From positions 1 through 64,000 of the forward strand of contig JAAMXY010000976.1 of NCBI GenBank assembly GCA_019677205.1: a stretch of 64,000 bases of DNA. The letters run 5' to 3'. The notes under the pieces were generated by a model that made no database searches, had not been told where the DNA came from, and saw nothing but the letters and a program-made list of their open reading frames with translations. The translations under genes were made by a program, and so were the position numbers. Below are positions 9,079-56,307 of the stretch, one piece after another. This DNA comes from Pinguiococcus pyrenoidosus. Taxonomy: Eukaryota; Sar; Pinguiophyceae; Pinguiochrysidales; Pinguiochrysidaceae. Within the stretch, counting starts at the first letter, position 1, and every line of letters starts with the position of its first letter.

Positions 9079-9650
9079 GAGTTGCCTCCGAAGACTTGCG
9101 GGGACTTCTTCCCGCAGAGACGACACGTGTGCAAATCTGAATGAGCTGGAGTTTGATGGCGCACCTTCCGTTGAAGGTGCAGAGCGGTCGGTTGAGGGAC
9201 GAATGACCCCTTCCCGATTGCAGGCGTCGACGCCGAGAGCTGGACGTATTTTGTTTGGAGAATTGGATCCTTGATACGACAGTAGTATGCATTTTCGCAG
9301 CGTAGCCTCGGCATGTTGCGTGGAGCCCCATTCTGCGCCCCCTTTCCCCCCCTCTCCCTCAAAGGAGGCGCACGCGACAAAGGACACCCTTAGCGTCTGG
9401 TCCGTAGCCAAGACTGACTGAATGGGTGAATCACTGTATTTTTTAAGCAATAAGGAGTTTACATTTTGCCTTGCGTTCTGCCTTGCGTTCTGCCTTGCGT
9501 TCTGCCTTGCGTTCTGCCTTGCGCTTTGCCTGGCTTCGTGGCCTTCTTAAAACTGCTGGGCACGGTCGCAGAGGGACGAAAGGCCATGGCCGACGGGATG
9601 TAGGAAACGGAACACAATGGACAGCAACCGCGCACGGAGCCGGACGTGCA
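9079..9650. other. Spacer between convergent hydrolase and LRR genes
   Basis: A 572-nt shared 3' region with no supported gene. It contains the 12-bp tandem array at 9467-9526. Both flanking genes end into it, so it should hold their 3' UTRs and polyadenylation signals, which I cannot place. Confidence 0.6.
9467..9526. repeat. 12-bp tandem repeat TGCCTTGCGTTC x5
   Basis: Four perfect copies and one two-base variant of TGCCTTGCGTTC. On the minus strand the same array would read Lys-Ala-Glu-Arg repeats, but it lies beyond the stop of the LRR gene at 9651, so it is probably untranslated. Confidence 0.9.
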
Positions 9651-23575: not shown

Positions 23576-23955
23576 GTGCGCGTGGCGCTCGCGGACGGAA
23601 CCGGCGCGTCGCCGAGGCCGAATCCTTGACGGTTTTTGGAACTGCGTTTGCGGCGTTATTGCCCCGTAGCATTGCGGAGTAGACGCTGGAGGAAACGGCC
23701 TTTCTTCGATACTGCCGAAATCGGGAGGAGCAAGGATTCGTATCCGTTTCTATTTAGAATATATTAACCATTTTTACTAATATATATTATATAAAACTGA
23801 AATGTATCGATAGCTTTCATTGGTGCGTTCTGAGACGTCTCTCGAAAGAGACCGCGTGGAACTCCGTCTCTGTCTCCCCGCAGTTGTTGAAAAGCGCGCT
23901 TCGTCCGTCTCCGCCACATCTCTCGAGGCGCCTCATCTGCTCAAATAAAGCAAGG
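23576..23955. promoter_or_regulatory. Bidirectional AT-rich spacer between FPPS-like and Dim1 genes
   Basis: A 380-nt spacer with a strongly AT-rich core at 23755-23815 (TAATATATATTATATAAAAC), including a TATAAAA-like string at about 23790-23796. It lies about 165 nt before the Dim1 ATG and about 190-220 nt from the start of the divergent FPPS-like gene. Such AT islands are rare in this window and recur in the other divergent spacer at 60406-60786. The promoter role is inferred. Confidence 0.5.
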
Positions 23956-24384: not shown

Positions 24385-25233
24385 TCGCGAGGGAGCGCCG
24401 TCGTCCAGGAAGCCTTGGGGTGTGCTGGGCGCGACGCGAGCGGTTTTGAACACGGTGGACCGGCGCGCTTTGCCAGCTGGAGGGCGTGCCGCCACCGCGC
24501 TGGACTCCTCGGCAGCCGTGGCGAACGGAAGACGGAGTAGGCTGCCGTGGAATGCCAAAACCAGCCCAGCGATTCTGTGGTCTTCCTGGCGATGCGGTGG
24601 TCTTCCGCACTGGCGCTCGCGTCCTGGCCGGTTTCCCCGCTGGCCTCCTCATAGAAGATGGAGGAAAGGTCTTTGACGCAAGTTCTGCTGCGGTCTCCGC
24701 AGCAGAGGTCCGAACAACACGACGACAGTCGTCTGACTTGTGGAGGTCGATAAGTTGAAGCATTGACGGCTGGGAAGGCGCGATGGCGTGAGGAGGGGCG
24801 CGGCACAGCTGAGTCCATTTGAACGCTCGCACGCCCGATTTTGGCATCAAGTACATTTCGACTCCTCGTCGCACTCTTTACGCTCTTTCCACGCAGTACT
24901 CGTCCATGGTCCGTCACCTCCACCGTCGACCAGCAGCGCCGCAGCTTCTCGCTCTCCGCTCTCCGCTCTCCGCTCTTTCTCTCCTCTCCATCCAAACCCT
25001 TCTTGATTCCATCACCATAAGGCTCACAACAACAACATTCGGCATTGGAGTTTTCAAGGAGTACTATATCGAAATTGCTGGAAAGACAACCGCAATGCGC
25101 GCGGATCCCATTTCGATCTGTACCTGGTATCGATTCTGTTGTGTGCATTTTGCATTTGATTTTTCCCGCCTTTTCCGCCGTCAAATCCATTCGCGTCTCC
25201 AAAGCGGAATCCGACGCTTCCGCCCCGGCCACC
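24385..25233. other. Spacer between Dim1 and RPA1
   Basis: An 849-nt region with no supported gene. It holds the Dim1 3' end, a short GCTCTCC repeat (24951-24971), and a pyrimidine-rich then AT-leaning stretch (24960-25200) leading to the RPA1 start. Open frames that cross it on the plus strand are upstream extensions of the RPA1 frame without conserved sequence. Confidence 0.55.
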
Positions 25234-27295: not shown

Positions 27296-27343
27296 GCTGG
27301 CCGGCTACAGCATCTCTGCGCTGGCCAGCTACAGCGTCTCTGC
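27296..27343. repeat. 24-bp tandem duplication over the channel gene's stop codon
   Basis: Two 24-bp units (27296-27319 and 27320-27343), differing at two positions, span the last codons and TAG stop (27329-27331) of the channel gene and continue into its 3' region. The same stop and C-terminal codons are therefore repeated once downstream. Confidence 0.85.
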
Positions 27344-28670
27344 GCTGATCGAAGCCGTGGCCTTCTGAAGCTCCTCGATCTGCGTGGCAAGCGCGTCCAC
27401 TTTCTCCAGGAGCTGGTTCATTCTGTCTGCCGTCCTGCCCTGCTCCTCGGTTGTGGTCTCCGCGAGCGCGGTGAGCTCTCCGAGGATCTCGTCCTTGTCC
27501 GTCTTGTCTTCCTCCCGTCCAAGCTGAAGGGCGCGATTCACTGGGAAGTACTCCGTGCTCTGCTTGTCGATCAGATCCTTCAGGTACCTCTCCGTGCCGT
27601 TCAGGTCCGCTTCGTCGGTCTTGCGCAAGTACATCCGATAGTAGACGTACGCCCACGGGTCGTGATCCTTTTCGATGTGATCGTTGAAGTTGATGTGGTG
27701 GCGCTCGAACAGCTCCCTGGGAAGGTTGCAGATGAAGCAGCGATTCCTCTTGTCCTGCTCGACGAAGTTGCGCGCCTCGCGGATCTCGGCAAACTTGTCG
27801 ATGATGATACCGGTGACAATCGCGACCTACGAAGGAGAGGGGGTGAGCTCCGGTGCCAAATGCTACGCAAGTCCATGAGGCGACGACGCCCCTCCACTTA
27901 CCATGATGAGAATGATGGTGATATTGTAGGATATGTCAATGGCATACCGACCGAACGTCATTTCGAAGGCGTCCCCATTGTCTCCGAACACCGGCGGACC
28001 ACGGAGTCCGTAGTCCAAGTGGTGCAGGAAGCTCTCGGCGAGGGAATACCACCCGCCACCGCCGTCCCCGTAGCCGTAGCTGTTGAACCCGTACAGGTTG
28101 ACGCCGAGGACGGCGTAGATGTACGTCAGGAAGACTCCGAGAATGAGGGTGGCGATGACCTGGTCAATTGGCTCCACCACGGCTCGCAACACGCTGAGAA
28201 GGATCTTCACGCGCGTCGCGATGTCGAGGATGTGGAAGGCAAAGAAGGCTACGCTCTGGTAGACCCCGAGGAAGCTGAACACGAGGAAGATCAGGTAGTA
28301 GACGGACTGGAAGTCCAGCAGAATGTCGGACAGCGACCACAGCCAGTTCCTCAGAACTGTGAACGGGATCACTTCCATCACCTTGAAGAAGCTTCCGTAG
28401 GCCCCCTGCGGAGGAGGCAGGGTTCCGTTGCGGATGGACTCTCGCTGCGTCCGGCCATTGTTCAGCGTGATCTGCGCCGAGCCGATGATGTAGACCGTCA
28501 GCATCAAGGCCGCGAGGAAGAGATGAACGTAGCCGAGCATTCGGACCAGGTCGAAGATGTCGTCGTCGAGGAAAGCCTTGCGGTCGTCGTTCCCGTTCTG
28601 AGAGTTTAGCAGAAGCATCAGGTTGATCGTGACGGTCACGCCGAGGGTCAGAATCACCCAAAGGTCCTCG
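27329..28670 (-). other. Pore module and C-terminal zinc finger of the giant channel
   Basis: Residues 9043-9461. Hydrophobic segments lie at 9043-9061, 9081-9105, 9163-9188 and 9209-9233, with the last one at 9281-9308, plus an S4-S5-like helix TRVKILLSVLRAVVEP (9192-9207). The pore loop is GLRGPPVFGD at 9261-9270, where IP3R has GLRSGGGVGD and RyR GGGIGD. S6 ends in TGIIIDKFAEIRE as in RyR (GLIIDAFGELR). The finger is Cys9326, Cys9329, His9346, His9351, spacing C-x2-C-x16-H-x4-H, as in RyR. The tail ends in a short coiled coil (EILGELTALAETTTEE...LEKVDALATQIEEL) like the tetramer helix of IP3R. This module proves the family assignment. Confidence 0.93.
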
Positions 28671-31600
28671 CGGGTCGTGAGGAACTTGATCAACTTGCTC
28701 GACGAGCGTTGCGTGAGAAGCTCGTGCTGGTGCTGCATGACGTGCTCGATGGCAATCGAGCGATCTAGGAAGTCGTCGAGCTTGTCCTCGGGATTCTCTC
28801 GGTTCACGTTGTCCATGATCTCGGCTCGCTCTCTTTCGACCAGCGGGTTGTCCATCTGGGTCCGACAGGCGGTCGGGAGAGGGAAGTAGATCTTCTGGAG
28901 CTTGCCGTCCCTGTTGACGATCTCAATATCGCCGAAGTAGGTCTCCATCTTGTCCGCGAATCCCTCGGCGATCATGCAGTCCGGAGAAGACAACGTCCGC
29001 GTGCTCCAGTATCGCTCCCACTGGCGGTTCTTCTCGATCCGGTCCCTCGACATGACTTCTCGTATGCCGATGTTCGCGTATGCTGCGCAAATGGCCTTGA
29101 TGGTGATGTAGTACGGGAAAGCGACGCGCAGCGCTTGCTCGGCCGTGTCCTCCATCAGCAACGGGTAGTTGGCCGAGATGCAGTACCAGCGTGCTTCATG
29201 AGCTTCGGGGAACTGCTCAAGACGGCGCTTCCTCTCCTCCTCCTTCCGCACGTCCGATCCGTCGAGGGCCTCCTCTGCCACAACGGTGGAGGCGTCCTCC
29301 AGCTTGCTCGACGAAGTGAAGGCGCTTCTTGTCAGGGCCTGGAAGCTGTACTTGGGCGTCTCGATCTCGAAGTCGGAGGCTCGCTCGATCTTCAGGACCC
29401 GATCCCGCATGGTGGTGTCAAAGAGCAGCTCCTGCCAGAAGGTGCGGAAGCGCTTGATGAAGACGACCGGTGACATGAGCTCGGAGTCGAGGATCTCCTC
29501 CAGGCAGCGCAGGTTGCTCTTGCCAAGTCCCTCCAGCATGAAGTAGACCGCGAAGACGCAGGACTCCTCCACTGCGCGCAACTTGGTGTACTTCGCCCAG
29601 GTGTCGCTGTCGAGGAAGGTCTTGACGCGCGACGCGCTGAAGTCGATCTTCTTGGATCCACCTCCGGGCCACCCGGAAGCGTCGTCGAACGGGGCCGCTT
29701 CCCTGAGGCTATTGGTGGCGCGGGTCAGCAAGCTCATCCACTTGCCACACTCGGTGATTAGCCCGGCGCGGACCAGGGCCTCCTGGCTCTCCACCACAGG
29801 GCCCTGGACATAGTCCGCACAGGAGCTGAACACCTGCCCAACCAACTCGAGCGTCATGAGCTCATCGGTCGTGTCCGTGCCCCAGGCTTGCCGATTCTCG
29901 TAGTCGTCGTGAAGCATGGACAGAATCTGTACCGTCAGATTCAGAATCGACGTCCGTCCGGAGGGAACCTCCACCTCCACGGTGCGGAGGGCGTGCTGCG
30001 CATCGCTCATCTGCCCGTCCACCAGGCTGTGAAGGAACGAGAAGACCTGCTCAAGATCCTCTAGCGCGAGAAGGCGACGCTGGCCGCGAAGCGCGCGAGC
30101 CTCCTTCAGGAAGTCGAAGATCAGCCTCGCCACCGCATTCAGGACATTCGTGCCCACAACCACGGTGATGTTCTCCTTCCTCAGCCGCACCGCCACCTCC
30201 TCGGAATTGAGAAGGTGCTGGACAAACTTCCGCTGCCCGTTCTTGTTCAGGCTCCGCATCAGAAGAGACGCTAGTCGACAGCCCGCGATCTGCACGCGCC
30301 GTTTGCCAACCTGCTCAATCATGTGGCAGGACAGCGCAACGGCCTTCATGTTGGCGATGAGGATGTCTTGAGCGAGGCTCAGGCCGTACTTGTCGCGTTT
30401 CGTCTTGTAGCTATCCGGCCGCCTCTCCTCCGTCTTCTCGTACTGCTTGGCGAGCTTGATGAGGTCCTGGATGCCTTCAAGGCGAAGGCGCTCCACGTCG
30501 ACGCTCGTGGCAAGGCCGATGAGGGTGTTCGCAACCGTGATGCAGAACTCTGGGTGCTGCTCGACGCAGCCCGGCCGCAAGGCGCTCTCGACGTACCGCT
30601 CAAGATTTGCGTTGCTGACGTGGTGTTGCTCGGCGGAGCTTCGTTGCGCAATTGCCAGGAAACGCCCGTCGGCCTCGTCGCGGTTGCCGTGCCCGGCTCC
30701 TGCGCTAACAGATCGAGTGATCGCTTGGGTGCCCCTCGCGAAGCCTTCCTCTGCGTTCTGCCGCGTCCTGGAGAGGCCCTCGGTCGCTCCCTGCGCCAGA
30801 GCCCCCGCGAGGCCGCCGAGCGCGTCCGCAGCGCCTTCTGCGAGCGACTCGATGGCATGGGCAGCGTCGTCGACCAAGGCCGCCTCCTCATCCTCGTTCT
30901 GACTCACCCCGGTTTTCTCCCGGTGCCTTTCCATGACGTTCCTGTCAAAGGTCGGCTTCGTCCTCTGAATCAGCTCCGCCAGCGCCACGTCATACGCCTT
31001 CTGCGTCGGAGAAAGAGCGATGCCCTGCGCAGGGAGGCGCAGCCACGTCCTTCCGTCCTCTATCTCAAGCAACTGCTGCCGGGGGGCACCCGATGCCCCA
31101 CTTTCGAGAACGACCAGTGGCTCGGCTCGAGGCAGCTTCCCCGGCGGCGTCGAGCGCTCGTGATACCCGATACCGGCGTAGAAGAGCTGCCGGCTGGTTG
31201 CATCCTCCAGAAGGCGATCCATCGCCTGCCAGATGGTCGGCTGCAGCAGGGTAAGCGTCTCGGCGGTGCAGGCCTGGTTCGCCTTGCGGAGCTTTGCCAG
31301 CTCCAGGCCCCCGTCCTCGGGGCTGATCCTTCCGTCCACGTCGTCCGGAGCTTTGTGGGCAGACATGTAGACGAGAGCGGCTTCCCGGTCGCGCTTGAGG
31401 TAGGCCTTGACCTTCGGCGAGATGAGCTTGAAGCGATCGCCGGTGACGTCGAAGTACTTCCTCATCGCTTCGAGATACTTGAAGACGTACTCATCCTTGG
31501 CGTCTTCAAGGAGATCGTCGCTCGCGCGGATCTCGTCCCACGACTGCCAGACCTCATTGTACATGAGCAGCTTTCCCGTCCCCTTTTCGACGAAGGCGTC

Positions 31601-34600
31601 CAGGAAGCTGACAACCGTGCCGGAGGGCGTGTGCTTGAATTTCCCGTACTGCCCGATGTTGACGGAGACGTTCTGGCCGGGGGCCAGCGTGAACGCCGGG
31701 CAGAGTCCGCCGTCCCACGAATCCAGGCCATGGAACCTTCGCTTGAACGCCACCGGCTGGACTTCTTCGCCATTGTGAAAGTACGTGATCAGGTTGGCGT
31801 CGAAATCCACCAGGACGCCAACGGTGCTGCCGACATCTATGCGAAGGGAGTCCGCCCAGGGGACCGCCTTCCCGTCCCAGTGCGTCACGGCTTCTCCGTA
31901 GGCGCACGCGTCGACCGCCCAGCTCGTCTCTGTCGAGCCGATGGCAGTCACGCTTTTGCCAAAGTTGTCAAGTTCCTTGAGCGTTCCCTCGTCAGCTTGT
32001 ATCAATCCGATCATCACGCAGTTTTTCTCTTTGTGCGAGTCCTCTCGATCTTCCTGCTCCACCCGATCGATGGTCTGCTTCGTCCCGATATCGCACTCAA
32101 AGTAAACACGGCCCGTGTCGCACGGGAAGTCCAGCTTCACGGTCGCGTGCTTGTCCGTCTGGTTCGAGAAGAAGGGGAAGAGGTTGGCCTGCGCGTCGTC
32201 GCGGAGCTGAGCAGGCGCCTGTGGCAGCGAGCTTCTCGCCACAGCGTTCGCCTGGACGATATCCAAGTAGTACTCCCTGTCCATCACTGATCAACACAAC
32301 AACGGAGCAACGCAGGTTGGTGAGCAACGTCAAAGGAAGGAAGGAAGGAAGGAAGGAAGGAAGGAAGGAAGGAAGGAAGGAAGGAAGGAAGGAAGGAAGG
32401 AAGGAAGGAAGGAAGACGCAGGGAGGCGAAGGCCACGTACCTATGAACTTGTAGCCCCAATCGTTGTTGGAGCCGTCCGAGACGAAGCGAGTGTAGAACT
32501 TCCCGGATGGAATCAGTAGCAGGCCGTTGCCATCGGTTCCGGGGAAGTTGCGACTTCCTCCATCCCTGCCGCCACTGTACTTCTGAACGCTGTCGAAGAA
32601 GACGTGCTGCGACTCGTCGCCTCCGGACACATCTGGGTCGTCGCCACGGATCTGAACGTAGTCGTACGTGGCTTCCGTGCGCGTCTCCGGGGAGAACCAA
32701 AGCACCAGCTCCTCGGCGCCCTCGATGCTGACTTCTGTGTTCACGCTCAGATTGTCATCGTACGGGTGAGCCGACTCCATGATTTTGTACTTCGTCGGAT
32801 CCTCCAGGTACTCGCTGAACGACATCTTGTCAAACGGAATCTGGGCAGGACGAACGAGGAAATTGATGTCTCCCGAAGACCCCACGTTCCGGACGTAGAC
32901 GACCTTCATCTTGTGCCCTCGAATCTTCAGAAGGTCGCCGCAGTAGTACGAGCTCGAGACGTCGCCACTGACGACTCGAGAGACGTTGTTGTCGACGGTG
33001 TAGAATATCAGCTTGTCCTCCTTCTGAAGCGCGCTGTCTGGGCTGAAGCAGATCTCGTAGCCGTTCTCCTTCTTCTTGCGAATCTCGAACTCCTTCGTGA
33101 ACTCTTGCGGATGGGCGAGAGTAAAGGCGATCTCGCCAGACGGCGTTCGCTCCATGCACCAGAACGCCTCCGTACTCTTCTCCGTCCTCTCGTCGCCGCT
33201 CTCATCGTCCTCAATGATGATGTTGCTGCCAACGGCGATGCGGAGCCATGTCTTCCTCCCCACCAGCAGGGATTCCACCACCCTCACGACCTCTTCTGGC
33301 TTGGCAAAGTGACGCTCGGCCGCGCTGTCCACGTCGGGGGCTGAGTACAGCTGCACCTGCTCGACGCATCGATACGCCGAGGCATCCCCGAACGTATCCG
33401 ACGATTTCCTCTCCCCCGCCCCTTCCGCGCCGGTCTCGGGCGTCTCAAAGGCGTCCTCGGGCGCCCCGATCCGCATCCGCAGGGCCTTGCTTCGCAGGAA
33501 CTCCGAGTGCAAGCCCGGAATCGGCCGCACGGCAAACTTGAATCCGTGCTGCACCTCCGCGACGCCGGCCGCGAATAGGAAGAAGACGAAGGTGTTCCCT
33601 TGCACCTTGAGGGTCTCGTTTGCGCCGAGGCCTGGGAAGTTGCCCTCGGCGCCGTTCCCCGTGTACTTCACGTCGTTCAGCATCGCCTTACTGTCCGGCT
33701 GCGCGTCGTAGCGGAAGACCTGGTTGACTTCGTTGTCGTTGATCTCGAACGGAACCTCCCGCAACGCGCAGACATAGTCGTAGTCCTTCTGGATCGACGT
33801 CTCCTCCGCAAAGGCGACCTCGAGGCACTCGGCATTCGGGATGTGCACGATGACGTAGTCACGGGCACTGTCCGCGTACGGGTGGGCCCCTTCGATCACC
33901 ACCGCTCCGGGTGAGTCTGCGACCTCTGCGAATCTCGTGACCTCATCGGCAGACTCCTTCGTCTCGGACGCTCTCGCCCCCCCCTCCTCGGCGGAGGCGT
34001 CCAGATCGGGCGACTCGGGGTCGATCCTCTTGGCGTTGAACAGCCATCCCTGTGGGCAGAAGGGGCGTTACGCGGTTGCACGGTTGCACGGGAGCCATCG
34101 ACAGAAGACCGGGCATGTGCAAACTCACCCACTCCGTATTCGAGGAGTCCGTCGTGAAAGACAGGAAGAACTGCTCATCATCGATTTGCAGAGGGTTGCT
34201 CGCGTGAGGCCAGTCGTCGTAGTTGCGACCAGAAAACTTGTCCTTGTCGTTCCAGCGCCAGTGCTCCGTGTACTCCGCACCATCCTCACTGCACGGAACC
34301 ATCCAATCGGCGGGCTACAAGGGGGAGACAAACAGCGAGCGAAAAGCACGTGAGCTGCCAAACGATTGCCGTCTCCGCTCCCTGGATGACGGATGCCATA
34401 CCTTCCACTCGATCCAGTTCTCCCGGTACTCCGGAGGATCCAGGACCTTCATCCGGTAGCTGCCGTAGGCATCTGGGTCGCCCTTCGGAAGATACTCGAG
34501 CTGCTCGCCAACTGCACTTGCCCAAACCATCTCCGCGCTAACCAGGATGGTCGTATCGCCGGGGATGGTAGCCTTCTCGAGGTTGTTGACGGGGCCATCG

Positions 34601-37600
34601 TAGACCTTCATGCCCTGCTTGAGCTTAAACTTGTGGCATCGCGCGTCGTCCACCTCCAGAACTGGCGGCCACTTGCACACGTGCACGTAGTCGTAGCTTT
34701 CCTCCGTGCGCGTGCGCGGGTCAAAGGCGACGTGGATTCGCTTCGCTCCAGGGAGGCGAACAAACCACAGCGCGGAGGTGTTGTTCTGGTACTGCTCCAT
34801 GTCTGGCGACCCGCACCCCTGGCTGAAGCGAGCTACCCTAGACCTGAATGCCTCACCTTCCTCGTTGATCGACGCGCTGCTCCGCGCTACCGAGACGGCG
34901 GTGTTGTACCGCACCACGTCGTCGGCGAGGCGCTGATCGAACCGCAGCAGCTGCTGGTCCTCGGCGGAAAGCGATCGAATTCTAAGCCGCCGCTTGGGCT
35001 CCGCGGGCGAGATCATCGCCATCATCTGGACCCAGGGCATCATCTGCCTTGCGTAGGTGACGAATCCCGGCGTAGACTCCTGAATCCGGTTGGCACGGTC
35101 CATGATGTCGTTGAGCGAGAGGCTGCCCGCCTCCTTCACCTTCTCCGTGTTTCGCGGGTTCGAGCTGCAGGCTCGCGCAAGCAAGCTGACAAGCGCGACC
35201 TGCAAGTCCGTGTCCGCGTCCGAGTCTGGCTTCAGCGCGTACTCCACCAGGGATTCCTTCACCGCCCCGATCTGCACAGTCTTCACCAGCTCGTCCGCAA
35301 TCAGACTCTGCGTCTCGACCCGACGAGCGGAGTACTCAGCCATGGCCTCGGCACCTTTTTCACGCTCGGTCATCTTCGCATCCTCTTCCCGGGGAAGGAC
35401 GGAAGTCAAGAGATCGAGCAGACCTGCGTCGCCTTGCGCAACCCGGTCGATCACGGCAGACACGAGGGCCGGGCTGCAGAAGTACAGCGCCTGCGAGCTC
35501 TTGAAGAGGGAGCTGAGCGCGACCTCGCTGCCGAAGGTGCGCAGGTGCTCGCCCATGTATCTCGTGCTCTTCGACGACAGCATGTAGCACTGCAGGACCG
35601 CATTGTTCATGACGGCCTTCCCGATCACGGTGTACGTCAACCGAAGAATCTCCGTGGCATCCACGGAGAGCTCGGCCGTGAGCAAGGCCTCCTGCGCCCT
35701 GTCAACCAGTATCTCGATGAGCTCGAAGAGGCCCAGGGAGAAGGCAATGTTCTGCGCCTGCTTGTTCCCGCCGTACTCGTTCAGGGACAGGGCAACCTCA
35801 TACTTCCCGTCCTTCCCAAACGAGTACGTGTAGGTCGAATCGGAGAAGTGCCCGTCCGGCGTTTGCCAAGCCACGACGAGCTCCACTACCTCGCCCTCTT
35901 GCTTGATGACCTCGGCCACCCTGCCTCGGATTGCTGCACCGCTTCCATGGATGCCCGCCTCTTCGCTCCTCGACAGATCCCAGTGCGGGCCTGCCATTGC
36001 GCGAGCAACGCGGAAAGGAAGGAAAGGTTAGCCGTTCGAGCCCGTGCGTCTGGATACGAGCTGCTGCCGACGTACCTATGGTAACCTTCAGCCGCCGCTT
36101 CTCAACGAGGCGCGCACCGAGCGTACTGCCGTCCAAGATGAAGCCGATTTCGCGAAGAGCCTGCTTGATTCTCTCGCTCATTGCACTCGCCTCCCGGAAG
36201 AGAGCTTCCGAGCCTTCGATCGACTGCCGGAGGGATCGCACCAATCCGTCCAGCTTCTCGACCATCTCGGAGGAGTCCTCGTCTGTGAAGATCGTGCGTG
36301 CGATGGTTCTCGACACGGTTGCCAGTCCGTCCTGGCGGACCACGAGAAGCTGCCACGTCTCGGAGCTGAGCTGTGGCGGAGCAGCAGAAGCGAGCCGAAG
36401 CAGGCAGTTGTTCACGTTCTCGGACTTGAGAATCGACAAGCGGCCGTCGGTACCCGAGCTGCCATAGCTTTTCTCCTCGGTACCGAAGAGAAGCTTCAGC
36501 GCGGGGAAGCGATCGATTCGCAGCGCCCTGTCCGACAGAGGTACTTCGGCTGGAAGCGAGGCAGTCGCGGCGTCGGTGAGATCCTCGTCCCACGAGATCA
36601 GCAGTTTCCCGTTCGCGATCTGCGTCACGGTTCCCTTGTGAGCCGCGCGGCCCCGCCCGTGCAGCACCCTTTGACCCACTCGGGGGGACGTTATCTGCTG
36701 CGGCACCAGGTAGAGCTCGCGGATGATGGCGACGAGATGCTCGACGCTGGAAGCGGCCTTGATAGCCTCGTACTCCTCGGACGCAAGCGTGGCAAAATCA
36801 GCCCTCGCCAGCTGGTGGGTGACTTCCTGGAGCTGGTGTAGCGTGCGCACGACGTTCAAGAGGCACTGCACCATGGGGTTCCGCTCCGCGTCCAGCTGCG
36901 TCATGGTCGTGATGCTTCCCGTCGGCGGCGTTTTCATGAGCGCCGAGACCAAGGCCAGCTGTAGTTCCTGGCACTTCTGGAAGTCCGAGTACACGCCCGC
37001 CTTCACCAATGCAAGCATCATGCTTGTCAACGAGGCGGATATCTCGTGGCGCCTCCGCACGACCTCCGGCAGTGGACTGCCCGCTTGCGAGGTGTAGAGC
37101 TTCTGCATTTCCGACAACGACCTCTGCAGCTTGGTTCGCTCCCCTTGCTGGTACAGCGAGCGCGGAAGCCCTCGGCCGTAGCCCACAAACTCGTTGACTG
37201 TCCTCTCGACGAGCTCCATCTCCGCCGACGCGGCCCGCTCGGATCGCCAGGCCTGAACGAGGCTGCTCCCGCGGTCGACCTTCACCGTGACATTCGTTCC
37301 CAGGGGAACCTCATGCTCGCTGATGTACAAGCTTTCCAGGAGCTGGATGAACGGCGAGGACTTGTCCTGCAGGGTGCAGTCCCGTCGGACTTCCGAGTTC
37401 GGATAGTTCACGGGTGCCCGTTCCCTGAAGGGCCAGAGGGTGGCACGAATCAGCTGCCGCAGCGAGAGCTTGTCCCTCAGGAACGACGCGATCTCCGGAA
37501 GGCCTCCCTTCGCGATGGCAACCCAAAGCGCCAGGGTCGCAGCGAAGAACTTCCGCAGCTGAAGCCTCGGCTCGTAGAGGTAGAAGATCTCGACGGATCT

Positions 37601-46600: not shown

Positions 46601-49600
46601 CACAAACTGGTGCGAGTTGATGTGCAGCCCATCCTCCTCGGTGGTGGGGAAGTTCTTCGTGCTCGACTGGTACCCGCCGGAGAACGCGCTGTCATCCCAG
46701 AAGCCGGCGTCGATGCTCCTCAGGTCTGCCGGCACCGTTTCCACGCCGTTCTTGCTGGGCACCTTGAGGAAGCGGACTTGGTCGTAGTTGGCCTCCGTCG
46801 AGGTCTTCGGATCAAAGATGACCTTGCAGCCTTTCCCAGGCGTCATCTGAATGAGCTCCTTCACGTTCGCGTTGTTCTCGTAGGGGTGGGCAGACTCGTA
46901 CACACGCCCCCCACGCTCGACGAAAGCTCCGAGCGGGTCCTCGGGAGGAGCCGTAGGAACGACGACGAGGCGGAAGCCCGTAGCGCCGTCCTCCGCGTCG
47001 TATCGGATCCACAGCGAGCTGCGTGGTACGCGCAGCGCGTCTTTGCCGAACAGGCCCGGAAGCGTACTCCCCACCGCATCTCCTCCGATGTAGGTCATTC
47101 CGATCTGCTCGGCCTCGGAGTCGCGCGGATCCGCCTCGAAGAACGACACCTTATCATTCTCCGAGGTCTCCACGCTTCCGTCAAACGCGATCAGGATGTG
47201 GTCCTCTCCGGGCAGGTTGACTTCGTAGAAGCCTCCCTCCTCCACAAGCTCCTCCGAGGTGATGAGCAGGGAGCCTTCCGCCCCCGAATGCGCCTCGAAG
47301 GGCGTGGGGTCTGGCTGCACCGATCTCGCGATGAGCCGCCAGCCCCAGGAGACGTTGGAGCCGTCCGAGACGAAGAGGACGGTGAAGTGATCGGTCGGGA
47401 TCTTCAACGGATGCTCCATGGACGGGAACCGGTTGAGGTTGTCCAAATTCGGGTCAACCAGGCCGTAAGTGTACTTCGTCACCCCCTCGGGCAGCCACGT
47501 GTTCTCTTCGTTGAAGTTCTCGTCGTCCGGACGGCCCTTGAGGAGCTTCACGTAGTCGTGGCCGTCTTCTGTGCTGGTGTTGGGGTCGAAGAAGACTTCG
47601 AGCGACTCCGCACCGGGGATCTCAACCACGGTCAGCTCGTGAGCATTGTCTTCGTACGGGTGCTTTCCCTCCACCATGACCTGATCCTTGAGCTCCTCCA
47701 CTGCACTTTCCGTGGTCAGGTAGGCTTGGGCGACGCGGAAGAAACTGTCCGTGTTCGCGGCGATGGCCTTGACAACGTCTTCGAAGAGCACAATGCCCCC
47801 CCCTTCCAGCGGTGCGCCCTCGACGATCGCCTTCATGGCTGTCTTGCTCTCCGCGATGGCCTCGAACGTGGACGAGTCCTGCTTCATGCCGCGGAGGAGG
47901 GCCTTGATCGCCCAGCGCTTGGTGTCCGGGTCGTAGCTCGTTGCCAGGTCGATGGCAATGGCCAGAAGCTCCGGGGTCAAGAAGATGAAGTCACTGGTCA
48001 GAGCGCGGGCGAGAGAGCGCATGATGTTGCACCGGTTGCGACGGAAGTCGATCTCCAGCTCAGACCTCGCGACCAGGAGGGCCTGCTCACGATTGCCGCT
48101 GTCCAGCGCCTGCCAGGACCCGTCGGAGCTGAACATGTCCCACACGACATTCGTTCGCGTCACCAGGTCCTCGGCATCCGGCGACGGCTCGCCGAGCAGA
48201 GCGGTGAAGATGTCAAGGAACGTGCTCTCGGGGAAGGGACCGGAGAACTTCACCATGCCCGCCGCCCCGGCGGAGAAGGACAAGGCGGGGACCACCCCAT
48301 TCTCCCAGTTCAGCCCGGCCTCCTCGTTCTCCCCCTCGGTGCCGTTCGTCGTGCTGGGAGCCGGAAGCTGCTGCACGTGAACGCAGCGCCCATTCACGTA
48401 GAAGCGAAGCTCGCCGGCGCTGAGGTCCAGTGACGTGCCGACGCTGTCCCCTTCGCTGGGGGCAGACAGATCCTTCAGCTTGGTCTTCTCTCCTGCGTGA
48501 TAGACGCTGGTGCCGTCGAAGCCGTAGCCGCTGCTGTCGTCCCCGAGGCCAATGGCGGGCTGGTCGTCCTCGCGCATGCGAAGACCGTCTGCCTTTGCAT
48601 CGAGCCACCCGATCACCAGCTTCCCCTGGGACCGAAGGACCGTCTCGTAGTAGACGGGCGCGCCGGCGTTGCCTCCCTTCTTCAGGGATGGATGGTCGAG
48701 AGCGCCAACCTTGGCCAGCCGAACTGTCTTGTACTCGTTGGCCGAGCCGCCGTGCTCGAAGGACACCTGCTGGAGCTTCTTGTCAAAGCGCTCCCGATAC
48801 AGCGTCCCGAAGAGCTGCAGCGACTCCTCCAGCTGAGCTCGGGGGAATTCCCTCGACAGCATGAAGTTGGCGAGCGTGCGGGACGCCATGCGCTGCGTGT
48901 CAGCGTCACCGGTGAGCAGCGCCGCCCGAGTGATTTCGTAGCCCTGGGCCAGCAGGATGTCCCCGATGAAGCGAAGCCCATTGAACGCGGTCTCCCCCCA
49001 CGAGGGCTTGATGAAGATGCGGTAGCCGAAGGCGTCCTCGGTCCGTACTTCCCCGTGAAACTCGACGTAAATCCGGCTGCTGTTGCATTCGAATCCGCGG
49101 AAATCGGCGGGCTTTCCCGAGAACTTCAGGCCCCCGCTGCCCAGGCCACGACCTTTGATGGTCAGCTCGTCGGATCGCCCGCTGCCCTTGTACGTCTGGC
49201 TCTCCTCGTCGAACGTGATGATGAGCTTTCGTGCGCCGAAAACGGTGAACTCGCGCTTGTAATTCTGCTCCGAGAGCGTGTACGGATGGGGGCTCTCGTC
49301 GAGGGTGAAGCTTTCGTCGACCCAGTCCTGCTCGCTGCTCAGAATGGCCAGCATGCTCAGTCCCCACCGCCGAATCCGAATGCTCTCGCTGGACGAGATG
49401 GCAGCGATGATATGCTTGAGCATCTTGGGGTTCGAGGCCAGCGAGTACAGGGCGTCGTAGATGTTCTGCAGCACATCAACATCCCCCCCAAAGGACGTCT
49501 CTTCAAGCGACCGGCCGGTGTCGAAGAGGTGGATCAGCAGGCGAAGCCCGAAGGCACTCTGGCCATCAACTTGCTCTCGCAGGAGCGCCAGGGAGAACTG

Positions 49601-52600
49601 CTCCTGGCTGAGCCTCGTGCTGCCCAGAACAGCGAAGACCCTCGTGACCGAGTCCAAGAACTTCACACTGGGCGGTAGCTCCGGTTCGGCCTCGCGATTG
49701 TACACGGAGTTGCATGCCACGAGCTTGAACCCATAGGCCTCGGTGCTGCTGTCGGTCACGAAGTGGACCCAGATCTTGTTCTGCTGGACGACCAAAGGGT
49801 TGTCCACGGTCGGGAAGTTCCTCTCGGTGCCAGCCACCCCGCCGCTGTACTTGGCCTCTCCGACCTGCGTCACCCGGTTCTCGTCGAGGAACAAGGTGAC
49901 GTTGTCGTAGTCCTTCTCCATTTCCGACTCCGCCGTGAAGAAGACGTGGATCTCGTCGGCCCCTTCCACCTCCACCGGCCACGTCCGGTCCTCGTCTGGC
50001 TTGTAGGGGTGGTCCGACTCGATGACCACGGTGCCGGGGCAGTCCACCAGGTTCTGGACCTTGTCTTCGACGGGCGCGTACAGGATCTCGAAGCCCCAGT
50101 CCACGTTGCTGCCGTCCGTGTGGAAGAACACCCAGCAGGTGTCAGCCGGCACAATCAGGGGGCTCTCTTCCGTCGGAAAGTTGTTCGATCCTCTCGGGCC
50201 GGAGTACTTCTCGGCGCCGAAGTATGCCTCCTGATTTCCCTGCTCTTTGCAGATGCGGACGTAGTCGTAGCTCGCTTCCGTCGAGCTGCGCGGATCAAAC
50301 CAAAGCTTGATGACGTTCCCGGATTGGACGGAGATCTTCCATTCCTTGTCGTTGTGGCCCCAGGCGTCCATGTTGTTCTGCGCGAGGCAAACGAAAAGAA
50401 ACGCAAAGAGAAAAAACAAGAGCATTGGCGAGAGCTCCGTCGGCTTGCGAGGCTCCAGTGGCTTCTTTGTCGGCTAGCCTTCATCCTTACCTCATACGGG
50501 TGCGGAGACACCGGTCCGGCCAGAGCGACCGTGGCGGTGCTTCTGTACTTCTCGACCTCAGCTTGCACCTCGACCGACGCCTTGTTCAGCCTGTCCAGGA
50601 GCCGCGACATCGGTTCGCCCGCAATGGCCTTGGCAATGGATCCGTCCCGGCAGAGGATCGCGATGGTGTCAAGGATGGCTGGGGAAGGGCTCTCGCCGAC
50701 ATACTCGTCGATCAGCTCGTCGAGAAGGGACAGGGCGGACGGGAAGACCGTCGACTGGCACGCGAGCTGGATGGGGAGGCTTTCGGCATTGGCAGCCACC
50801 TCCGCTTTGCTCAGTGCCTTGGCGTACGCGCGAAAGTCCTCCACGAAGAACGGAGCCACTTCTCTCGGCACGCCGTCCTGGGAGATCCGCATTGCCTCTG
50901 GGACTTGTCCGATGTACAGGGTAGGCTCTGAGTCGCTTGCTGCGAACGAGGCCAAATCCAGCTCGGCATCCTCAAACTCCTCTTCGAAGACGGCCTCGGT
51001 GTCGAAATAGACGATCAGCCCCGTCGGCTTCAGCACGAGAGTGCAAAGCGTCCACTCCTTCAGCTTGAGGGGCCTGTCTATGGTGAAGCTTAGCTGATCT
51101 TTGCCGTCGGGCCTGGAGGAGCTGCTCAGAACCGGAAGGCGGATCCCGAGCTCCATGTCAGCCTTGGCGGAGAGGCGGAGATGCTTGTAGCGGAGACTGC
51201 CCACGTGGAAGATCTTGGGGCCGTAGTTCTTCCTGGTCGTGTTGGGCTGCGGCGCGCTGTCCGGGTACAACCACATCGAGAAGGAGATTCCCGCGGTGGA
51301 CGCGAGCACGTCGCTGTGCAGGTACGAGGCAATCGAGCGGCTGTCGGTGAGCTTCGTGCTCCAGCGCAGCAGCTGCTGGTAGCCTTCGGCGCCAACGCGT
51401 TGCGGATCACGACGCCCGTCCACCAGCGGACGAGCCCAACTTGGAGCGGGCAGATGGCTCAGATCCTCTTCCGACTTTCCCGAGTCTTGGACGTAGTGCC
51501 GATCGAGCACTTCCAGCTCCATCGCGCTGGACTGGGACGTCGAGTTCTTGCTGGAGATCAGGTCCAGGAGGTTCTTCGCGTTCACTCGCAGCTCTGGCTC
51601 GGGGCTGGTCAGCATGCTGAAGAGGCGGCCGAGGCCCTCCATCGGCTCGGAGTTCTCCCCGACCACGAGCAGCGGAAGGTTGTCCTCGTTCCTCCCGAGC
51701 TTGGTGATGGTGTCCAGGACGAGCTTCTTCACGCCGACATACGTCGTGTCAAGGAGGCCGAGCACCTTCGAGAGGCCGTACTCCATCACGGCCTGCTGCA
51801 GAGACTTGCTCCGGATGTCGTGGGAGGTCGCTTCCAGCGCATTTGCGCAGGCGTTCAGAAGCACGAGGTTGTCCTCGTTGTCAACTCGCTTGTTGGCGTT
51901 CATGATCTCCACGAGCGGGATGAAGGGGCACGAAAGGTACGAAGCTTGGATCTCCTGGTTCAGCGGCAGGCCCACGTATACGGCCAAGGCCTTCGAGATG
52001 TTGTCAATGGTGCCCTCCTCGAGGTCCGACCCCGAGCTCACGATCTCGATCATGTTGACGATGACGCCGTTCTGCGAGAGCTTCGTCCTGCAAGTGGGCA
52101 TCAGGTTGCGCACGAGCGTCGTGGCGACGAGCTTGGTCCACTTCGAGCCTTCCGCAAGGAAGGAGTTGATGCGATTGAGCACGAAGTCGTTGCTGAGGAT
52201 GTCGTGGTTCTCTTCCTCTCGGCTCAGATTTGCCACGACGCTCGCGGCGTAGCTGGTCGTCTCGTCGTCGGAGGCGGCGGAAAGCTCCATCAGGTGGCGG
52301 ACGCTTTCTTCGCTGAGGTACTCCTGCGGAACCACGGTGCCGACTACGGATCCGATCGTCTTCCTGCTCTTGGTCTCCTCAATCTTCTCGTGCGGATCTT
52401 CCGGAAGAGCCATGTCTGCGTCATAGACGAGCAGTTCAATCCCCCAGTCGACGTTGCTGGAATCGGAGCGGAAGCTGCCGTACACGACGCAGCCCGCGAC
52501 TTCCAGTGGCTCGTGGATGGTGGGCCAGCCGGAGTCGCCCGTGAACTTCGCCTGTCCGTCCGCTCGGTTGATCGGCGTCTGGCGCTCTTCGTCCGAGTAC

Positions 52601-55600
52601 AGCAAGAGGTAGTCGTGGGTCTCCTCGGTCTTCGTCTGGCTTGAGAAGGCGATGGCGATCGCGCTGGCCCCTTCCACCTCCAGCTTGAAGTCGATGCTCT
52701 CATCGTCCTCGTACGGATGCTGGGTCTCGAAGCAGGCCACGCCGTCGGTCTCTTTCAGAGCGCTGAACTGGTTGAAGGCCGGGAACACCACGAACTTGCA
52801 GCCGTGGTCGTTGTTGCTCCCGTCCGAGACGAAGCGGTACCAGACGTCGCTGCAGGGCGCAATCCACGGGTCCTTTCCTTCCAAGCCGGGAAAGTTCTTC
52901 GCGCTGCCGTCGCGGCCGCCGGAGTACTTTCCGGTGAGAGGCTTGTCGCACGCCTCGTCGGCGTAGAACTGGACCCAGTCGTACTGCGGCTCCGTGGACG
53001 TCTCCGGATGAAAGGCGATGCCCGCGCAAGCCGACTCGTCGACGCTCAGCTTCCTCTTGATGTCGCTGTTGTCCGCATACGGGTGGGGCGTCTCAACCAC
53101 GAAGGCGCCATCCCTGTTGAGGTACTCCGCGAAGATCTCCGCCGGGTCCGGGGGCAGCACCGCGTCGTCGACCCCCTGATAGTACAGCCGGAAGCCGAAC
53201 GCGACGCCGGAACCATCGGTGATGAAGTTGGCGAAGATCGTGGACGAGGGGACATAGAAGGGATTCTGCTCCGTGGGCAGGTTCTTCCCCGGAGTGCCCG
53301 TGAACTTGGCGCCGAAGCGCTCGCTGTCGCGGCTCTGGTCTGCGTAGAACATGAGGTAGTCGTAGTTCTCCTCCATCTCGGACTCGGGGTCAAACCAGAG
53401 CTTCAAGTACGGCTTGGAGGTGGTGAGCTCGTACCAAGCGTCCTCGTTGTTGCGGTACGGATGGTCGCACTCGACCGACAGCACCGGCTCCACGGCCTTC
53501 TCTGGCGCGGACTCGGCGAGGAGGTCGTCGGAGACGGCACCATAGATGGCTCGAATGGTGAGCTGGTAGCCCCACGCGCTACCCTTGCTGGCCTGGCTCA
53601 TGTTGACCCCGACCACCACGCCGTCCGCGGCGATGACGTAGGTCTGCCTCTTCGAGCCATCGCGGATGCGCAGGGGCTCTCCGAAGTCCTTCTCGTTGAG
53701 CCTGCCCTGCACGGACAGGAAGTCTCCCCCGAACGCCAGAAAGAGCGTCCGCGGATCGACGGAAATCAGGAACGCGCTGGCCCCGGGCCGAGAGATCGAG
53801 ATCCTCTTCGCGTCGGAAGCGGTGTAGGGGTGCCCCGACTCGAGCATGATCGGAGCGGTGAACAAATTCTCGCTCTCCGGGATGGACGAAACGAAGAGCA
53901 CCCAGGAGACCACCCTCGAGCGGACGATGCTGTCATCCACCTTGGAGGGGATCATCAGCTGCGTGACATAGTCTTCCGACTGAAGCGGCCGCAGCTCGAA
54001 TCGCTTCGCCCCGCCTTCCGCTGCGACCTCCTCGGAAAGGAGGAACTCCGCGTCGTCGAACGCACCAGGGTGCAGCAAGCCGGCCACCTCAGCATACGTC
54101 TTGATTGGCTCCGCCGCGGACCGGAAGCTCAAGCCGAGAAACTCGGTTCGGCGCTTATCGGCAACCTGCTCGAGCACGGTCATGTCTTCGTCGTCACTTC
54201 CCAGGAAGACGCTGAGCGCTTGGCTCGGAAGCAGGTACACGAAGAACGCGAAGCCCTCTTCGTCATCCTCCTCCGGCAGGAGGGAGGGGAACTCCAGCTG
54301 CTTCACAACGAACGTCGCGTCGCCCTTCCGAGAAGTCTGCGGGACGCAGTAGTGGACCTCGGGGTCCGCTCCCTTCTCCAGAGCCGACCTTCCGTAGAGC
54401 ATGACGCCCATCTGGGAGCCCTCGGGGAGGTATCCCACCAGCCCGGCGACAGTCTGCCCAAGCTCGGTCATGTTGAAGGCGTTCAACTCCTTCGCGATCG
54501 ACTTGCGCCCGAAGAACACCATGGGGGAGCAGCCCCGATTCCCGATGTTCACCTGCACCATCAGTCGGCCCTGGAACCCCGCGGGAATCGTGGGGCTCAC
54601 GCAGAGGAGGCGCGGATCTCCCGAGCGGTTGTTGAGGTCCAGCGCATCCTCGCGGATGGCCTTCCTCCAGAAGGATCCCTCCACTTCCCTCGCGGCGGTG
54701 CTGTCGGAGATGCTGAGGAGCATCGCGCGGTCCTCGGTGAGATTCCCCAGCGCCTCGTACGCCATCTTGACCGTGCCTTGATGGCTCTCCTCACGGCACT
54801 TCAGGTACAGCGTCTCCAGAACGCCCGCACTGTTCAGCAGCTTCTTCCGCAGCGAGCGTGGCTTCGAGCAGAGCATCAGGCACTTCACGGCTAGCTTTCG
54901 CGTTTCCTCGTCGTAGCGCCGAGCCATCCGGAGCACGTTGAGGAGGAAGGGCTCACAGAAGTCTTCCATGACCTTAACTTGGTTGTGCTCGTCCTCACAG
55001 AGCTCGCTCAGGCACAGCGCAGCCGTGCGCTGGCTGATCATGTCCTTCCGGAAGTCAAAGAAGAAATCGAAGCTCGTGCCGCCGTCCACCAGAAGAGCCT
55101 TGCAGTCTTCACTCATGCAGATGTTGGCCAAGCAGAACGACGCGAACCTCGGCACGGCCTTGTCCGGATGGCCGATCATCTCGCGGATCAGCTGCACGCC
55201 CTCTGCGTTCTGCCCGAACTTGACGATCTTCACTCGATTCTCGTTGGCCACCTTGTGGCGGGCCATCGTCGTGCCGTCGAAGGAGAACTCGGCGCGAATG
55301 AAGACCTTGTACCCGAAGAGCTCCATGCTGTAGTCCGCCTTGAAGAAGACCCAGACGTCGGAGCCTTCGATGGTCAAGATCGGCTCGTGGCCGAGGTCCG
55401 GGCCGGAGAACTTCTCCACCAGGTGCGCATCCTGCATCTCCTCATTGGTGTAGAACGCAAGCTCATCCAGGTTCTCCTCGGTCGAGCACCGGGGGTCGAA
55501 CTCGATGAAGAGCTTCTCGGCCCCCTGCACCTGGTAGTGCCGGGAGATCGTCGTGTTCGGCGCGTAGGGATGCTTCGATTCGTCCTGGAAGATGACGTGA

Positions 55601-56307
55601 TCCCGGCTCTCGTCCTTGGGGCTCACGGTCGCCTTGTACAGGGAAACCGCGAGCCAGCGGAGCACCTCCGCATCCGCCAAGAGGTTCTCCTTCCCGAAGC
55701 TTAGAGCATTCGTCAAAAGCTCGTCCACGTCCGCCGTGAGGATGTCGAGGGCCTTGTTGGCGAAGCGCTTCGTGTCCTTGTCATTGAAGGACGCGCACCA
55801 GAGGATGCGGTGCAGGATGTTGCGGCTCTCGACGTCAAGAAGCTTGCGCCGCGTGGAGGGCTTGAGGCAGGCAATGCTCATGGCCTCGACGAAGATCCGC
55901 TGCGTGGGAAGCGACCCCGAATAGGCGAGGAGCTGCAATTTCTGCAGCGCCAGGCTCTTCGTGCCGCCGTCTGCTCCGGCAACGTCCTCAAAGATATCCG
56001 GCATACTCTCCACGTCTGCGTCGGCGGCCGTCGCCTTTGAGAGCCCCAGCTCCTTGAGGATCTGGTTTCTCTCCGCCGAGATGTCCATCTTGTCCGAGAC
56101 ATTGCGGAGGCGATTGGCCTTGTTGCTCAGCTCGGTGATGATGTTATCAAAGCGCTTGAAGTCCGGGTTGTCCCAGGGCAGACCCGCCTGGTGGGTGGTC
56201 AAGGACATCTCCTGAGCCATGGGCATCGTCCTGCCGCCGGCGCCCGCGCCCGAGCCCTTGCCGGAGCCCTTGCCGGCGCCCTTGCCGGAGCCGCCGCCCT
56301 TTCCCAT
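27329..56307 (-). CDS. Giant RyR/IP3R-superfamily calcium-release channel with CUB, SPRY, LamG and ARM modules
   Basis: Seven exons join in phase: 56307-50491, 50377-36076, 35990-34402, 34314-34129, 34049-32441, 32286-27902, 27826-27329. The protein has 9,461 residues, almost twice RyR. The start (accATGG) gives a Gly/Lys-rich N-terminus. Armadillo-like helices alternate with CUB-like modules from residue 230 to 7830. LamG/concanavalin-like modules lie at about 1660-1835 and 4300-4440, SPRY-like at 2500-2660, 4110-4260 and 7870-8050, and a MIB/HERC2-like module near 5060. The RIH-associated region (about 8545-8690, with DYVQGPVVESQEALV) leads to the pore and cytosolic C-terminus. Family members release calcium from internal stores. 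I see no MIR domains or clear IP3-binding core. Introns are 75-154 nt; each restores a broken module, e.g. PHPYE joined to NNMDAW. The ligand and the membrane it sits in are unknown. Confidence 0.92.
32333..32415. repeat. AAGG tetranucleotide microsatellite in a channel-gene intron
   Basis: About twenty uninterrupted AAGG units fill more than half of the 154-nt intron 32287-32440 of the giant channel gene. On the sense strand they form a CCTT pyrimidine tract upstream of the acceptor GATCAG. Confidence 0.95.
32450..55600 (-). other. CUB-like module array in the giant channel (14 His-Pro-Tyr copies)
   Basis: Fourteen modules of about 110 residues begin with a His-Pro-Tyr motif, whose His lies at residues 246, 826, 949, 1075, 1197, 1936, 2062, 2303, 2845, 3103, 3398, 4697, 7354 and 7726. 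The common pattern is HPYxDN, then a hydrophobic strand with PGA, FDPxTSTExxYDYV, KYSGGxDGSxxNFP, PLxI and FxSDxSNxDWGYxF. At least five further modules lack HPY but keep the rest. The pattern matches CUB-type beta-sandwiches, most closely (from memory) the intracellular one of ZZEF1 rather than disulfide-bonded secreted CUBs; paired cysteines are absent here. They sit between armadillo helices, mostly in the cytosolic portion expected for this channel family. Confidence 0.8.

Follow-up and report, generated by a model that had tools for sequence, protein, structure and literature searches.

The window analysed here, 64,000 nucleotides of contig JAAMXY010000976.1 from Pinguiococcus pyrenoidosus (C359 among the 768 contigs of a 23.7-Mb genome), poses the question of whether a chain of very long open reading frames on its minus strand encodes a single enormous ion-channel protein and, if it does, what sort of channel that would be. 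An earlier reading, made from the sequence alone (the sequence-only reading), had proposed one gene for a calcium-release channel of the RyR/IP3R superfamily. Our analysis leaves us confident, judging by its sequence, that the product—the giant protein in what follows—is a single-gene member of that superfamily. By the features that define those two families it is neither a RyR nor an IP3R, and the best explanation overall, which we consider rather likely, is that it is a cation-channel subunit of ~1.05 MDa, probably gated through a cytosolic array of CUB repeats.

The gene model was derived from a six-frame listing, the junction sequences, a splice-chain script and the joined coding sequence. 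Seven exons (56307–27329, minus strand, as for every feature of the gene given below) join in phase to yield 28,386 coding bases, 9,461 residues and one terminal stop, exactly the figures of the sequence-only reading, and the mass computed from the joined sequence (1,054 kDa) agrees with its estimate of about 1 MDa. The six-frame listing holds stop-free frames of 2,058, 4,891 and 1,475 residues among the exons; the longest, measured from stop to stop, compares with no more than 418 residues when the bases of the window were shuffled 20 times. All six introns (113, 85, 87, 79, 154 and 75 bp, in order) are of the GT–AG type; for intron 1, a pyrimidine-rich acceptor (CGCGCAG) gives the 9,461-residue product, and poorer alternative acceptors would give 9,483 or 9,480 residues. 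With codon usage trained on the frames of two IP3R/RyR-like loci of the same genome (C5 and C410) and on the neighbouring RPA1 frame, the true frame had a positive codon score in all 19 windows (0.32–0.57 bits per codon), against at most 0.11 in the other frames. The gene is real and, very probably, single.

Exon 1 (50491–56307; residues 1–1939) opens with ATG 56307 and a Gly/Lys/Ser-rich N-terminus devoid of any hydrophobic segment, and contains Arm-like repeats, a LamG-like module, five CUB repeats and the beginning of a sixth. Exon 2 (36076–50377; residues 1940–6707) encodes eleven CUB repeats, two SPRY modules, a LamG-like module, Arm/HEAT repeats and a weak MIB_HERC2 stretch. Exon 3 (34402–35990; residues 6707–7236) has an in-frame ATG (35997) right before its acceptor; exon 4 (34129–34314; residues 7237–7298) supplies a portion of a CUB repeat and exon 5 (32441–34049; residues 7299–7835) further CUB repeats. 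Exon 6 (27902–32286; residues 7835–9296) runs from the end of the last CUB repeat through a SPRY module and the core-solenoid/RIH_assoc region to the transmembrane helices S1 to the first half of S6; exon 7 (27329–27826; residues 9297–9461) completes S6 and adds a C2H2-type C-terminal domain and the stop. Intron 5 also harbours a perfect AAGG tetranucleotide array of ~21 copies (32333–32415; CCTT on the strand of the gene).

An argument for one gene comes from a relative, a 6,719-residue ‘hypothetical protein’ (P0004; JGI source, 37.5-kb contig) of the same layout, which came first (E 3.9e-14) in a search of 3,559 candidate proteins of ~4,320–13,760 residues, ahead of nine RyR-type proteins (P0005–P0013; best 1.2e-8). 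P0004 matches both flanks of intron 2, colinearly and in one reading frame: residues 5238–5445 of the giant protein correspond to 1333–1567 of P0004 (z 16.8), 6106–6253 to 2306–2453 (z 10.5), 7075–7475, within the CUB repeats, to 3931–4276, 8499–8593 to 5551–5646 (z 5.1), 8884–9228 to 6042–6432 and 9249–9459 to 6511–6714. Because CUB repeats also match one another off the diagonal, the argument is carried by the non-CUB anchors, namely the three for which z is given; three off-diagonal controls between the two proteins were not significant (z −1.1 to 1.5). Intron positions fit the same picture, as five of the six fall inside conserved modules or at their margins, intron 2 being the sole exception. 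Intron 1 splits one CUB repeat at HPYE|NN, which makes unlikely the boundary between separate genes near 50 kb that the sequence-only reading had entertained. Intron 3 separates the halves of a split CUB repeat, whose SSNTEW|GW motif is cut by intron 4; intron 5 lies where another CUB repeat ends, and intron 6 splits the S6 helix (IILIM|VAIVTGIIID), which runs uninterrupted in P0004.

The last ~500 residues are of RyR/IP3R type, bearing out what had been claimed for the C-terminus. Against solved structures, exon 6 matched RyR at E 4.5e-13 and IP3R3 at E 1.7e-11; compared with three proteins, the channel region matched C410 at E 1e-35 (142 bits), C5 at 3e-31 and fish RyR2 at 3e-20. A four-row profile of the giant tail and three paralogs reached IP3R2 at 6e-95, a score that may owe much to the canonical paralogs. 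In 19-residue Kyte–Doolittle windows, transmembrane-like peaks are confined to residues 9043–9308, with none earlier, so that ~9,000 residues precede the first hydrophobic segment. S1 to the first half of S6 (27902–28663) were placed by alignment to RyR/IP3R and by hydrophobicity. The RIH_assoc/core-solenoid region (29753–30055) aligns to RyR and spans the two positions equivalent to E3893 and E3967 of RyR1, each occupied by Asp in the giant protein; RIH_assoc scored 29.8 bits in the six-frame search (cut-off 28.5) and 24.6, below the cut-off, in the exon scan. The C-terminal zinc site (CFIC...H..H) is retained. Between the channel tails of the giant protein and P0004, 185 of 546 aligned residues (34%) are identical, the longest conserved run being S6 (YN..IILIMVAI.TGIIID), which by eye is RyR-like (AI..G..ID). 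In a ten-row tree, a branch supported at 99/98 sets the two apart from the other rows; the tree holds no IP3R rows and so cannot place that branch nearer to RyR or to IP3R, and the long branches of C5, C410, C635 and the giant protein were flagged.

Three IP3R/RyR-like loci occur elsewhere in this one alga (C5, C410 and C635; L015–L019), and C410 has a long C-terminal extension beyond its zinc domain. No second copy of the giant channel was seen when exon 6 was searched against the genome, where it matched itself, C410 and C5 only. All three of our protein searches cover relatives sharing five-residue words: that with the channel exon passed none of the 7,999 best word-sharing candidates (~800–2,560 residues), and that with the CUB/SPRY exon found, among its best 1,277 candidates, only P0001 (a HECT protein) and a cubilin-like protein. 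No relatives were found in viral contigs or prokaryote genomes.

What precedes the channel is not the front end of a RyR or IP3R. For a check of its proposal, the sequence-only reading had suggested profile searches with seven domains. CUB and SPRY did match, RIH_assoc passed in one of two scans as described, and Ion_trans, MIR, Ins145 and RIH were not listed for any exon by Pfam at E ≤ 0.1; nor, in the same scan, were the RyR repeat domains (PF02026) and EF-hands, which are listed for the RyRs P0005–P0007. NCBIfam listed nothing for exons 1, 2, 3 and 6. A profile of the N-terminal module, made from C410 and the N-termini of five RyRs, gave the giant protein 3.3 bits (E 0.0078) over 29 profile positions at residues 6138–6166, which we regard as not detectable, and P0004 −2.2 bits; held-out controls scored 29.0 bits (C5) and 940 and 1,157 bits (two RyRs). 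Neither this profile nor the Pfam scan thus revealed an IP3-binding core (MIR/RIH). The same genome does hold Ins145 in three places (that of C5 below the cut-off), MIR in three, two of which belong to the IP3R/RyR-like loci, and RIH four times, over two contigs (all at E ≤ 0.1), the Pfam scan adding MIR for C410, as well as RIH_assoc in four places including the giant gene (E ≤ 0.001). As the Ins145–MIR–RIH front end is undetectable and CUB, SPRY, LamG-like and Arm/HEAT modules stand in its place, the giant protein is not an ordinary RyR or IP3R.

A profile made from 14 HPY-motif repeats of the giant protein itself, so that the count is partly circular, gave 20 matches corresponding to 19 CUB repeats (one is split), with a further 0.9-bit stretch left uncounted. 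Exon 1 carries single repeats at residues 242–363 (55219–55584) and 823–943 (53479–53841) and three in tandem at 945–1319 (52351–53475), its Pfam CUB score being 41.9 bits. Two tandem repeats at 1934–2179 (49658–50508), the first cut by intron 1, lead into exon 2 (Pfam CUB 58.5 bits), followed by one at 2299–2423 (48926–49300), a block of six at 2841–3719 (45038–47674; three of them weak, at 9–19 bits), one at 4694–4821 (41732–42115) and a weak CUB-like repeat at 5566–5653 (39236–39499; 8.9 bits). Beyond intron 2 lie the repeat in two halves at 7102–7320 (33984–34806), crossed by introns 3 and 4, and those at 7350–7483 (33495–33896) and 7722–7850 (32240–32780), the latter with intron 5 at its end. 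An 11-repeat profile retrieved 16 solved sequences, the CUB domains of C1r, MASP, PCPE-1, cubilin and C1s (E 1.6e-7 to 0.005).

Three SPRY domains are present, as in RyR, although their spacing differs: a SPRY-like module at residues 2549–2660 (48215–48550; fish RyR2 711–808, E 2e-5), one at 4113–4213 (43556–43858), which is the best of two SPRY stretches that Pfam finds in exon 2 (66.7 bits for the exon) and matches RyR2 1091–1236, and one at 7919–8047 (31649–32035; Pfam 33.6 bits). The modules with which the sequence-only reading had filled the extra length fared unevenly: CUB, SPRY and the armadillo-like repeats (Arm, HEAT and HEAT_2) exceed their Pfam cut-offs in one exon or another, and the LamG-like modules at 50794–51321 and 42953–43189 (Laminin_G_3, 26.5 and 24.5 bits; cut-off 27.6) and the weak MIB_HERC2-like stretch at 40880–41011 (21.5 bits; cut-off 33.5) remain below theirs.

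Applied elsewhere, the CUB profile gave nine matches in P0004, two in P0001 and, in the cubilin-like protein, 19 weak ones; it matched neither the nine RyR-type proteins nor the frames of C5 and C410 nor the last frame of C635. According to one study (PMC10850435), cbCUB domains act via many weak contacts and bear the signature Tyr-Glu-Asp-Asp. That signature is complete in 12 of the 20 matches of the giant protein, four of nine in P0004 and both in P0001 or, with split repeats joined, in 13 of 19 repeats of the giant protein and six of seven in P0004; Tyr and both Asp lie in register in most of the giant protein’s repeats, and the Glu is shifted by four residues. Two CUB repeats of P0004 contain Cys-rich inserts (~972–1009 and 4002–4084) with CxxC pairs, ZZ-finger-like by eye. 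On contig C218 (42000–55289; L024, L025), nine matches of this CUB subtype lie in plus-strand frames, with a HECT domain after them on that strand; from its sequence, this region probably encodes a giant CUB-HECT ubiquitin ligase. Since both C218 and P0001 pair CUB repeats with HECT, the subtype occurs in at least two kinds of giant protein, the channel and a probable ubiquitin ligase.

At the selectivity filter (27980–28009; residues 9261–9270), a gap-free alignment sets GLRGPPVFGD against GVRAGGGIGD in RyR; P0004 shares the start, GLRGP, within the full stretch GLRGPVAWEN. At the positions of RyR1 E3893, H3895, E3967, Q3970 and T5001, the residues are D, Q, D, Q and N in the giant protein, against E, Q, E, Q and T in P0004. 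The column assigned to T5001 is a presumed one. Those of E3893 and E3967 agree with primers quoted in PMC8609856, which gives these five residues as the RyR1 Ca2+ site and reports no activation at 10 µM Ca2+ for E3893D or E3967D. Both Glu are retained in C410 and C635, where the Thr position is taken by Asp and Asn, respectively; in C5 the two Glu positions fell outside the alignment. Of the calcium-release channel proposed by the sequence-only reading, then, the RyR/IP3R-type pore stands. That reading did not have the caveats that the Ins145/MIR/RIH module is undetectable, the filter non-canonical and the Ca2+-activation residues altered, so that calcium release itself is something that we infer.

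Other accounts of the locus deserve weighing against a single gated channel. Two neighbouring genes would consist of a CUB/SPRY/Arm scaffold (exons 1–2) and a channel of ~2,750 residues (exons 3–7) starting from ATG 35997, which stands in frame immediately ahead of the exon 3 acceptor; the channel portion by itself would have the size of an IP3R, and residues 6254–7074, around intron 2, have no significant match in P0004 (three tests, z −0.9, 0.3 and 0.7). P0004, however, has counterparts of exon 2 and of exons 3–7 in the same order and one frame, the unspliced first frame extends to 35798, past the second gene’s ATG, so that the two genes would overlap, and intron 2 carries a GT–AG pair with the donor TAG|GTACGT. 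We rejected the two-gene model on these three grounds as quite improbable; the colinearity and the overlap likewise make unlikely the split near 36 kb that the sequence-only reading had raised. Superfamily membership of the channel part and the three IP3R/RyR-like loci would also suit an ordinary receptor, gated by IP3 or ryanodine, in which the N-terminal module had diverged beyond detection, and the profile match to that module is not strictly zero. Yet the match lies mid-protein, not at the N-terminus, and a profile that detects the held-out C5 leaves P0004 below zero; with the module undetectable despite positive controls, we rejected this account as very unlikely.

Two further accounts concern the CUB array and the pore. 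Among solved CUB domains the closest ones come from outside cells, and a channel might accordingly have been fused to an extracellular or lumenal CUB protein, with the array lying outside the cytosol. There is, however, no hydrophobic segment upstream of residue 9043, Cys is not enriched in the repeats relative to the whole protein (28 in 2,503 residues, over 20 stretches, against 118 in 9,461), and the same CUB subtype is found with HECT, a cytosolic enzyme, in P0001 and beside HECT on C218, all of which led us to reject a lumenal array as barely credible. The giant protein might instead be a pore-dead relative, in which the pore fold anchors a giant cytosolic scaffold to the membrane and passes no ions. 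Replacement of the filter glycines (PPVFGD, and PVAWEN in P0004) and the altered Ca2+-activation residues would fit, as would the Paramecium CRC-VI channels, which according to PMC3213138 have next to no similarity across the filter; the same paper treats the permeation of most channels of Paramecium as an open question. Against it, S6 is the longest conserved run between the giant protein and P0004, suggesting a gate under constraint, and the final Asp of the filter is retained in the giant protein. We regard a dead pore as unlikely.

Returning to a channel gated through its CUB array, the pore would be formed by four subunits in the membrane of the endoplasmic reticulum or of a different store, and the N-terminal mass would be cytosolic. 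The sensor would be the CUB array with the SPRY modules: repeats with the conserved Tyr-Glu-Asp-Asp may bind Ca2+, or partners via Ca2+, through many weak contacts, and the array would pull on the core solenoid and thereby gate the pore. IP3 is an unlikely ligand, because the IP3-binding module is undetectable. The filter PPVFGD would be expected to confer a conductance or selectivity differing from that of animal RyR/IP3R, and Asp for Glu at the canonical Ca2+ site to leave direct Ca2+ activation there weak, so that Ca2+ sensing would fall to other modules. Taken by itself, CUB-dependent gating is a tentative proposal, somewhat nearer to doubtful than to established. More tentative still is the suggestion, drawn from sequence comparison, that the giant protein and P0004 form an unrecognised protist branch of the superfamily that lost the IP3/ryanodine N-terminal module together with the glycine filter and senses Ca2+ or partners by a cytosolic CUB array.

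Several observations weigh against this picture. Six between-anchor comparisons of the giant protein with P0004 were not significant (z −0.9 to 2.7), three of them around intron 2, and P0004 is the only relative of the same layout found. The GGG(V/I)GD filter is not matched, three glycines being lost in PPVFGD, so conduction is not assured; variants of the filter do exist in protists, as in the CRC-VI channels and paralog C5 (DAGVAD). In P0004 the Ca2+ site still has its two Glu and its Thr, and loss of that site is consequently not a family trait; nor are the filter and Ca2+-site changes unique to a new branch, given that C410 and C635 differ at the Thr position and C5 at the filter. By our reading of the alignment rows, the CUB Glu lies four residues before the Asp and not eight as in C1r, and a CUB Ca2+ site is therefore not proved. 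Cubilin, which is extracellular, likewise shows Asp in the two Asp columns for most of its 19 matches, and CUB domains act outside cells in the papers examined.

If the proposal is true, each subunit would carry up to ~19 CUB domains, most with the Ca2+-binding signature, or ~76 per tetramer, and CUB repeats, an extracellular module in those papers, would be placed in an apparently cytosolic channel sensor. The giant protein is possibly a third branch of the superfamily. By one account (PMC7016017, citing Alzayady 2015), the split that separated RyR from IP3R is usually placed at the base of the filozoans; by another (PMC11085791), algal IP3Rs were until recently reported only from green algae and then from brown algae, diatoms lacking IP3Rs and a novel channel being suspected behind diatom Ca2+ waves. 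An alga, seemingly of the chlorophyll a/c type, with three IP3R/RyR-like loci and a CUB-array channel with SPRY domains and a RyR-like S6 would alter that picture of distribution, and a channel of this type could be among the unknown channels behind algal Ca2+ waves. The natural filter variants of the giant protein and P0004 also offer material with which to test which residues set conduction.

Around the giant gene, the window holds a gene for an RPA1-type single-strand DNA-binding protein (25021–27177, plus strand), convergent with it, and beyond that a polyprenyl synthetase gene (22040–23749, minus strand). An Integrase core match at 5012–6511 on the minus strand (33.1 bits; cut-off 32.6), with a weaker H2C2 zinc-binding match, is by its sequence probably a retroelement fragment. 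Rfam gave no match in the window at the gathering score. Elsewhere in the genome, contigs C452 and C313 have HECT domains in open frames of 4,843 and 6,125 residues, and very long open frames are hence not confined to the giant gene. Twenty-nine places match the chlorophyll a/b-binding antenna family, representing fewer genes, as exons were counted separately; one light-harvesting protein matched 406 solved sequences, the best 60 of which included many with names such as ACPI, CAC, FCP and VCP, with long ‘LHCI’ chains of 9vfj at the top. From the names of these solved antenna proteins, the host seems to be a chlorophyll a/c-type alga.

Among known systems, P0004 stands closest, sharing the CUB subtype (nine matches, or seven repeats), a RIH_assoc domain, a RyR/IP3R pore, the GLRGP motif and colinear anchors, with Ins145 and MIR likewise unlisted; it differs in being shorter, much of residues 1–4600 of the giant protein having no clear counterpart, and in having the filter PVAWEN, not PPVFGD, with the canonical Glu/Glu/Thr retained. 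The sequence-only reading knew of no described calcium-release channel with this architecture, and we too found none in the searched collections and open-access literature, P0004 being listed only as a ‘hypothetical protein’; no description of a CUB-bearing RyR/IP3R channel appeared among the titles and abstract openings of the open-access papers listed.

With RyRs, both solved ones and P0005–P0013, the giant protein shares a core solenoid, S1–S6, the C2H2 C-terminal domain, three SPRY domains and a RyR-like S6; unlike them, it has 9,461 residues against ~5,000, no detected Ins145/MIR/RIH, RyR repeat domains or EF-hands, a replacement for the GGGIGD filter and a CUB array. C5, C410, C635 and the IP3Rs resemble it in the channel region (142 bits to C410), RIH_assoc and the C2H2 domain. 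In contrast to it, C410 and C635 have Ins145, MIR and RIH above cut-offs; C5 has MIR, with Ins145 below the cut-off and RIH not listed. The paralog filters read SGGIGD (C410), GGGLGE (C635) and DAGVAD (C5) where the giant protein has PPVFGD, and CUB was not found in the frames of these loci (by profile in C5, C410 and the last C635 frame; by Pfam in the other C635 frames). The giant CUB/HECT proteins, from C218 and P0001 (5,908 residues), have the same CUB subtype, P0001 also having SPRY and MIB_HERC2, but differ in a HECT ubiquitin-ligase domain inside or adjoining and in having no channel listed; matches of the giant protein to the C218 frames at E ≤ 1e-4 are confined to CUB repeats. The oomycete PKDRR channels, as described in PMC7399828, are likewise protist channels that mix RyR-type domains with another architecture; their pore is of the polycystin/TRP type and only their R domains are RyR-like, whereas in the giant protein it is the pore itself that is of RyR/IP3R type.

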